DNA of 41,321 nucleotides, taken from contig CANLJX010000011.1 of assembly GCA_947491545.1 (NCBI GenBank), positions 1 through 41,321 on the forward strand, in the 5' to 3' direction. The notes beneath the pieces were generated by a model. It saw only the letters and a program-made list of their open reading frames with translations, was not told the origin of the DNA and did not search any database. How positions within the stretch are numbered: position 1 is the first letter of the stretch; each line of letters starts with the position of its first letter. The position numbers were made by a program, and so were the translations under genes. The DNA is from Deltaproteobacteria bacterium (GTDB lineage Bacteria > Bdellovibrionota_C > UBA2361 > OMII01). Below are positions 4,659 to 36,354 of this stretch, piece after piece.

Positions 4659-4750
4659 TCGGCTTTTGGCCTGGCTCCCTCGCAGGGTCTGGGCGTGCCC
4701 GTGAACGTACCCGCTCAAGCCAATCCTGCCGCCAGCAACAGACGCAGTTC

Positions 4751-4823
4751 ACAAAGAGAGCGGCGAGGACAGCGAGGGGAATGTCGGGTCTTAACCCCTC
4801 GCCGTTCTCGCCGCTCTCTTTGT
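4751..4823. repeat. Hairpin repeat element, copy 1
   Basis: The left arm 4751-4779 (ACAAAGAGAGCGGCGAGG + ACAGCGAGGGG) pairs with the right arm 4795-4823 over 29 positions: 27 Watson-Crick pairs, one G-U and one A-C mismatch, closed by a 15-base loop. Two more copies lie at 35902 and 36071. The arms end in ACAAAGAG and CTCTTTGT in all full arms. A role as terminator of greA is possible, since the right arm ends CTCTCTTTGTT, but there is no real U-run. Confidence 0.8.
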
Positions 4824-4976
4824 TCCCCCTTAAGCCGGGCACGGGTAACGAGCACGTTCACGTATTCAACAACCCAAGGCCGCCAGCCCTTTGAGCCTCA
4901 TTTACATGTAAAGCCTTTTTAGGGATTCAGCAGACATAAGGGGGCAAAGGTGTCGGTCCCCTTTTCCACAACAACG

Positions 4977-35832: not shown

Positions 35833-35901
35833 CAACTGGCAAAAATCCTCGCCGTTTACGTGCACGTTCGCGTTTGAGGGACGAGCGATTTGGGGGTGGA
35901 A

Positions 35902-35984
35902 ACAGTGAGAGCGGCGAGGGCAGCGAGAGGGGGAAGGCAAGTTGATTGTTACTTACCCCTCGCTGTTCTCGCCGCTCTCTTTGT
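35902..35984. repeat. Hairpin repeat element, copy 2
   Basis: The left arm 35902-35932 (ACAGTGAGAGCGGCGAGGGC + AGCGAGAGGGG) pairs with the right arm 35956-35984 (CCCCTCGCTGTTCTCGCCGC + TCTCTTTGT). A few mismatches and a two-base bulge are present. The right arm differs from copy 1 by one base. Confidence 0.8.
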
Positions 35985-36070
35985 AAATATTGAGCTGTTA
36001 CTGGCCGTGGGCAGGCTGGAGGGCGGGTGCGTGCACGTTCGCGTTTGAGGGTCGGGCTGCCTGGAGGGGA

Positions 36071-36145
36071 ACAAAGAGAGCAGCGAGGGCAGCGAGAGGG
36101 GAAAAGCCCTGTCGCTTCGTACTGACCCCTCGCTGTTCTCTTTGT
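36071..36145. repeat. Hairpin repeat element, copy 3 (right arm shortened)
   Basis: The left arm 36071-36101 (ACAAAGAGAGCAGCGAGGGC + AGCGAGAGGGG) is complete. The right arm 36126-36145 (CCCCTCGCTGTTCTCTTTGT) lacks nine bases relative to copy 2. The missing part lies between short CTC repeats, which suggests replication slippage. Pairing at both ends of the stem remains possible. Confidence 0.8.
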
Positions 36146-36354
36146 AAATATTGAGCTGTTACTGCTGGTGGAAAGGCTGGAGCGCGGGTGCGTTAACGCG
36201 CACGTTCACGAACCGGGCAAGAACTTAGGCCTCAAAACCCAGAGTTAGCTCCCGGGACGCCCAACCGACTTTCGAGAAATGCCTCGAAGCTCCTCTTTTT
36301 TCCCCGCCCCCTCCGGGCTATCCTCCCGCCATCTTCCTGCTTGGAGAGGACCCC

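Follow-up and report, generated by a model that had tools for sequence, protein, structure and literature searches.

Dispersed intergenic hairpins in a deltaproteobacterial genome: probable gene-less copies of a tiny mobile element carrying a GxxExxY gene

The window, which is the whole 41,321 nucleotide stretch of DNA that was analysed, belongs to the genome of a Deltaproteobacteria bacterium (G000; 3.03 Mb in 206 contigs, approximately 84% complete) and contains three copies of a hairpin that recurs throughout that genome. These hairpins probably derive, as non-autonomous and MITE-like copies, from a mobile element of very small size with a GxxExxY gene, the nuclease product of which would act on them in trans. 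This reading is drawn from the copy number of the hairpins, their intergenic sites, the arms that bracket the gene, the co-occurrence of hairpin and gene, the matching of cognate arms in two genomes and the deletion intermediates found in relatives, all of which are visible in the DNA itself.

The preliminary description had placed hairpins with 29-nt arms at three sites in the window, and all three were found there (Table 1). The tandem that it reported was likewise present, as the second and third copies lie within a direct repeat of 169–171 nt that includes their flanks, and the nine bases said to be missing from one right arm are exactly one 9-nt arm unit of the third copy.

Table 1. Coordinates of the hairpins and associated repeats in the window
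Feature	Position (bp)	Strand	Details
Solo hairpin copy 1	4751–4823	.	Arms 4751–4779 and 4795–4823; loop 15 nt; greA-dnaG gap
Outer inverted repeat, left side	4700–4713	.	CGTGAACGTACCCG; 37 nt beyond hairpin copy 1
Outer inverted repeat, right side	4849–4863	.	CGAGCACGTTCACGT; right of hairpin copy 1
Solo hairpin copy 2	35902–35984	.	Arms 35902–35930 and 35956–35984; loop 25 nt; upstream of purH
Solo hairpin copy 3	36071–36145	.	Left arm 36071–36099; right arm 36126–36145, one 9-nt unit short
Local tandem duplication	35859–36206	.	2 units of ~171 nt (hexamer tract, hairpin and right flank); closing hexamer tract ~36196–36206

Searching the window's genome with the arm pattern gave 85 matches, compared to 0 for the reversed control. 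A covariance model was built from 30 hairpin copies; a first, limited look with this model located about 76 places in the genome, and its application to the window and to 291 kb fetched around matches revealed at least 88 distinct hairpins, a count from searches and fetched stretches that is a lower bound for the genome. These 88 hairpins were spread over 57 intergenic regions and lay in both orientations. None of them (0/88) overlapped a gene, and the intergenic share of the window is only 9.5%. Two to four hairpins, mostly spaced 94–200 nt apart, were present in 24 of the 57 regions. As 76 of the 79 arm matches in the fetched sequence of this genome were members of paired hairpins, the unit is the hairpin and not the arm. 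The outermost 8 nt (ACAAAGAG/CTCTTTGT) were nearly invariant across copies and the loop sequence was free.

In a set of eleven further genomes from the genus, the covariance model gave 17 matches in G003, 8 in G008 and none in the remaining nine. The exact arm pattern was found in six other DNA stretches of the GTDB species collection, four of which had GxxExxY genes or fragments, with the other two being solo hairpins of G003. No such hairpin was present in the greA-dnaG gap of the five sister species whose interval was readable. A comparison with G006 yielded no base-exact empty site, the sister intergenic DNA being too diverged, and the full elements and solos that were inspected, none with an aligned empty site, had no evident target-site duplication. 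The mobility proposed in the preliminary description (MITE- or REP-like) is supported by the dispersal and the two orientations of the copies and with their sporadic presence among congeners, and the further copies that it suggested seeking with the arm and a covariance model were numerous in the window's genome and few in two congeners.

Hexamer tracts (ACGT-type) lie beside all three window copies, as had been described, and tracts matching the motif used in the search were enriched 11-fold near hairpins relative to other intergenic DNA. The description did not extend to the genome as a whole: only 19 of the 88 copies had a tract on the left and 14 on the right, and for this reason the tracts were not accepted as a fixed component of the element. 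The outer inverted repeat, sought around the hairpins of the same genome, was not above mis-paired controls. Upstream of purH in G003 (L133) there is a different hairpin formed from ACGTGAACGTACCCGG / TTCGGGTACGTTCACG tracts, the same motif as that of the tracts flanking the window hairpins; the inner hairpin is absent from this site.

Elsewhere in the order and class, in other families, the covariance model matched hairpins with other arms and the same build of 9-nt units, e.g. ACAGAGGGC ACAGAGAGC, and it was these that led the search to the GxxExxY family. Within the genus, PF13366 was detected only in G000, G001, G003 and G008, and in each of these genomes the hairpin arms form terminal inverted repeats around a GxxExxY gene. 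G001 encoded two intact copies, one of which spans ACAAAGAGAGCGGCGAGAACGGAGAGGGGGAA ... TTCCCCCTCTCGGTCCTCGCTGCTCTCTTTGT and measures 426 bp end to end, and no solo hairpins were detected in this genome. The gene between the arms had an internal stop in G003 and was broken in G008. The window's genome carries an intact copy with an open frame (L162, 1450–1893), in which NKECSEGREGE, near the protein start, is encoded by the left arm and the stop codon forms the end of the right arm (TTTGTAA), together with a second copy that is a pseudogene with different and degraded arms. Where the intact gene ends, and further downstream (L162, 1866–2028), the right arm and a tail of ~40 nt are tandemly repeated, with arms at 1866, 1939 and 2003, all of them right arms. 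An estuarine MAG (L072, 1–160) has several tandem left arms, many ~26 nt apart, ahead of a GxxExxY fragment that has decayed.

The GxxExxY family, which is annotated across many phyla of bacteria, is uncharacterised. The protein encoded between the arms in the window's genome was a full member of TIGR04256 (E 7.8e-44), passing the cut-offs of both TIGR04256 and PF13366. It contains the conserved GxxExxY, D, ExK and H..Q...Y residues, and six of 15 GxxExxY proteins showed weak similarity to the Cas4 profile (PF01930), the best at 7.7e-4. The family (TIGR04256/PF13366, PDDEXK_3) belongs with the Cas4-like PD-(D/E)XK nucleases, with which it has the conserved D, ExK and Q...Y residues in common, and its members are predicted nucleases; unlike the Cas4 nucleases, GxxExxY is encoded as a single-gene unit within inverted repeats. 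The predicted structure, made from an alignment of two sequences, had a pLDDT of 35.6 and was unusable. A sequence search of the PDB gave nothing credible, a defence-system library contained no match to GxxExxY, and no relatives were found in viral contigs and phage records.

Comparison of the gene-bearing elements with solo hairpins revealed how the latter may arise. A leader of ~90 nt before the left arm, starting from GTTCTCTC, and a tail of ~27 nt after the right arm, up to GAGAGAAC, are common to both G001 elements and the one in G003. One solo hairpin of G003 (L122) has retained the leader, the tail and the arms and has lost the gene, and a second (L057) is similar with a shortened leader. 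Truncated elements were also found: in G015 (L175) the arms surround a gene that stops after ~45 codons, giving a total of 197 bp, and B. finegoldii contains arm pairs of 182 bp and 159 bp end to end in addition to a complete copy. The solos with leader and tail, together with the truncated elements, demonstrate loss of the interior in relatives. The loops and flanks of the solos in the window's genome had no recognisable remnants of gene, leader or tail, so the deletion route is demonstrated for the relatives and not for this genome, the solos of which would either be of greater age or descend from a source element since lost.

The association extends beyond the genus. In 37 genomes from across the class, hairpins matching the covariance model and PF13366 were both present in seven, the hairpin only in one, the gene only in three and neither in 26 (Fisher p = 8.5e-5; 0.0055 outside the genus, with phylogeny ignored in both). 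The one genome with the hairpin only (G033) had a short hairpin of different build, and the pattern of co-occurrence recurred in several families. Flanking inverted repeats, defined by a score of ≥14 where the best control scored 12, were present at 17 of 22 GxxExxY loci vs 0 of 60 small control genes (p 1.6e-13); the same test found no strong flanking repeat at the other five loci. The positive loci reached Bacteroidota and Alphaproteobacteria and included Bacteroides finegoldii, Bernardetia and a Sphingomonas copy located between fabD and fabG. Although the arm sequences differed, the best internal lag was 9 nt in 15 of the 17 arms examined. One such arm had 62 matches (control 0) in plasmid 1 of Gemmatirosa kalamazoonensis (Gemmatimonadota), where the hairpins measured 74–89 nt and the GxxExxY gene, in two frames, was located between two complete hairpins, one of which had perfect 35-bp arms. 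Additionally, the solo arm was nearest to the arm of the genome's own GxxExxY gene both in the window's genome (L162, 93% identity) and in G024 (97%).

A complete element measures ~430–550 bp, in which inner terminal inverted repeats of 9-nt units (ACAAAGAG-AGCGGCGAG-...) enclose one GxxExxY gene; some genomes add a leader and a tail as well as outer repeats. The arms, of about three 9-nt units, encode both ends of the protein, and loss of the gene would leave a bare palindrome. We propose that the nuclease is itself the mover and that the intermediate is DNA: the palindrome would form a cruciform, or a single-strand hairpin at a fork, on which the enzyme would act in trans, and cutting by the enzyme would start copying or insertion into intergenic DNA, after which local recombination could build the tandem arrays. 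Cas4-like cutting of a cruciform or fork hairpin is the simplest fit to the conserved foot of the stem, the free loops and the dependence on the presence of the gene. To our knowledge, a PD-(D/E)XK nuclease on its own does not rank among the established transposases. We put forward only tentatively, as a possibility that falls somewhat short of an even chance, that GxxExxY is the sole protein of a new minimal class of mobile element, in which a gene of ~370 bp set in 9-nt-periodic inverted repeats, recognised as hairpins or cruciforms, spreads both itself and gene-less palindromes with no HUH, DDE, serine or tyrosine recombinase.

The palindromes could instead be moved or duplicated by other means, such as host recombination, slippage or an unseen transposase, with the GxxExxY gene being a passenger that tends to sit inside them. 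The complete element does lack a known transposase, and the arrays show that local duplication occurs. G004 and G009, congeners in which PF13366 was not found, are also rich in hairpins; these belong to another abundant family with 42-nt arms (TGGAGGGCAGGCGGCCTCGCCGGCCGC..., e.g. L151 of G004, upstream of dnaG), the arm core of which had 80 and 95 matches in G004 and G009 respectively vs 2 in the window's genome. Abundant hairpins are therefore not always tied to GxxExxY. Against a passenger gene, GxxExxY genes of several phyla lie between arms that differ in sequence and share the 9-nt build, the ends of the gene itself are encoded by the arms, and the presence of the hairpin tracks that of the gene, which makes this explanation rather unlikely.

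REP and REPIN sequences with RAYTs, and TIRtrons with TIRYTs, are species-specific families of short palindromic intergenic repeats that occur solo or in arrays and flank a single gene (PMC3116915, PMC3733652). The hairpins of the window's genome resemble these in being palindromic and intergenic, in their size, in occurring in both orientations, solo and in tandem arrays, and in having arms that also surround one gene. As six Y1_Tnp proteins are encoded in this genome, mobilisation by a Y1 (HUH) tyrosine transposase, in the manner of RAYTs or TIRYTs, had to be weighed, and the preliminary description had likewise raised a RAYT-type link. That link was not borne out. No hairpin arm lay within 1.5 kb of any of the six Y1 genes in the ~84% complete genome, and the best arm matches near them (16–20 of 29) were at the level of shuffled sequence (18). 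The foot of the hairpin lacks a GTAG or CGTC tag and has the flank consensus G/T-A-A-Y-A-T. The arms, of 29 bp with 9-nt periodicity, are found instead at GxxExxY loci, so that the partner is GxxExxY and not a Y1 HUH transposase. One of the Y1 genes (L031, 1170–1949) has a TIRtron-like organisation with its own 39-nt terminal inverted repeats (CGGAAAACCCCTGTCAGTCATGAC...), which are unrelated to the hairpins. We regard a Y1-driven origin as very improbable.

The preliminary description had also suggested that pairing in the stem is kept by compensating or G-U changes and that RNA structure is selected, neither of which withstood analysis. The stems are very stable (−50 to −57 kcal/mol), and G-U pairs outnumber A-C mismatches in one orientation. 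In the 30 copies, 88.0% of stem cells were paired vs 90.0% in shuffles, and only 3 double-sided pair changes were found vs 5.4 expected. Stem position 23 was mismatched in 26 of the 30 copies, mostly as A-G or C-T, a mismatch that we take to be the mark of a single ancestral hairpin, asymmetric and now present in both orientations. Selection on the transcript to maintain a functional RNA or a terminator hairpin is scarcely credible, despite these energies and G-U pairs, given that the arms lack covariation, that tandem, convergent and divergent gene gaps are all occupied, that orientation in tandem gaps does not match the direction of transcription (15 against and 6 with, counted per gap), that the hairpin is missing from sisters at the same gene gap and that no Rfam family matched at gathering score.

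For bacterial MITEs, a known transposase family can normally be named (PMC10969869). Like MITEs, the hairpins are short (under about 600 bp), noncoding and intergenic, have terminal inverted repeats and apparently arise by loss of an internal gene; their repeats also occur in an element of this genome that bears a gene (L162) and may be autonomous. Unlike MITEs, the putative parent element has no known transposase and no clear target-site duplication was seen. In the open literature, as distinct from subscription papers and database comments, we found nothing that describes GxxExxY as belonging to a mobile element or as having flanking repeats; the name was mentioned in one paper as a domain label beside a reverse transcriptase and in another on an algal virus, and PDDEXK_3 was not found. 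The element, which occurs in several bacterial phyla, is thus apparently undescribed. Palindromic repeats of bacteria often have no known mover. One kind of palindrome, with a 9-nt signature, is now linked to one particular family of nucleases, widespread and uncharacterised, and the question becomes testable in cultured bacteria (Gemmatirosa, Bacteroides). Should the nuclease be the mover, its gene would rank with the smallest genes known to spread themselves and would represent a new use of the Cas4/RecB-like fold; should it not be, the link would still explain a class of intergenic hairpins and give the GxxExxY family a context.

The window also contained a second type of intergenic low-complexity tract, composed of CCGGAACCGGAGCCGTT-type hexamers in both orientations (1928 bp–1975 bp, 14,252 bp–14,287 bp and 35,793 bp–35,829 bp). 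Additionally, a 12-nt tandem repeat of ~40 units (26,874 bp–27,450 bp) was located within a long minus-strand ORF (26,018 bp–28,210 bp).
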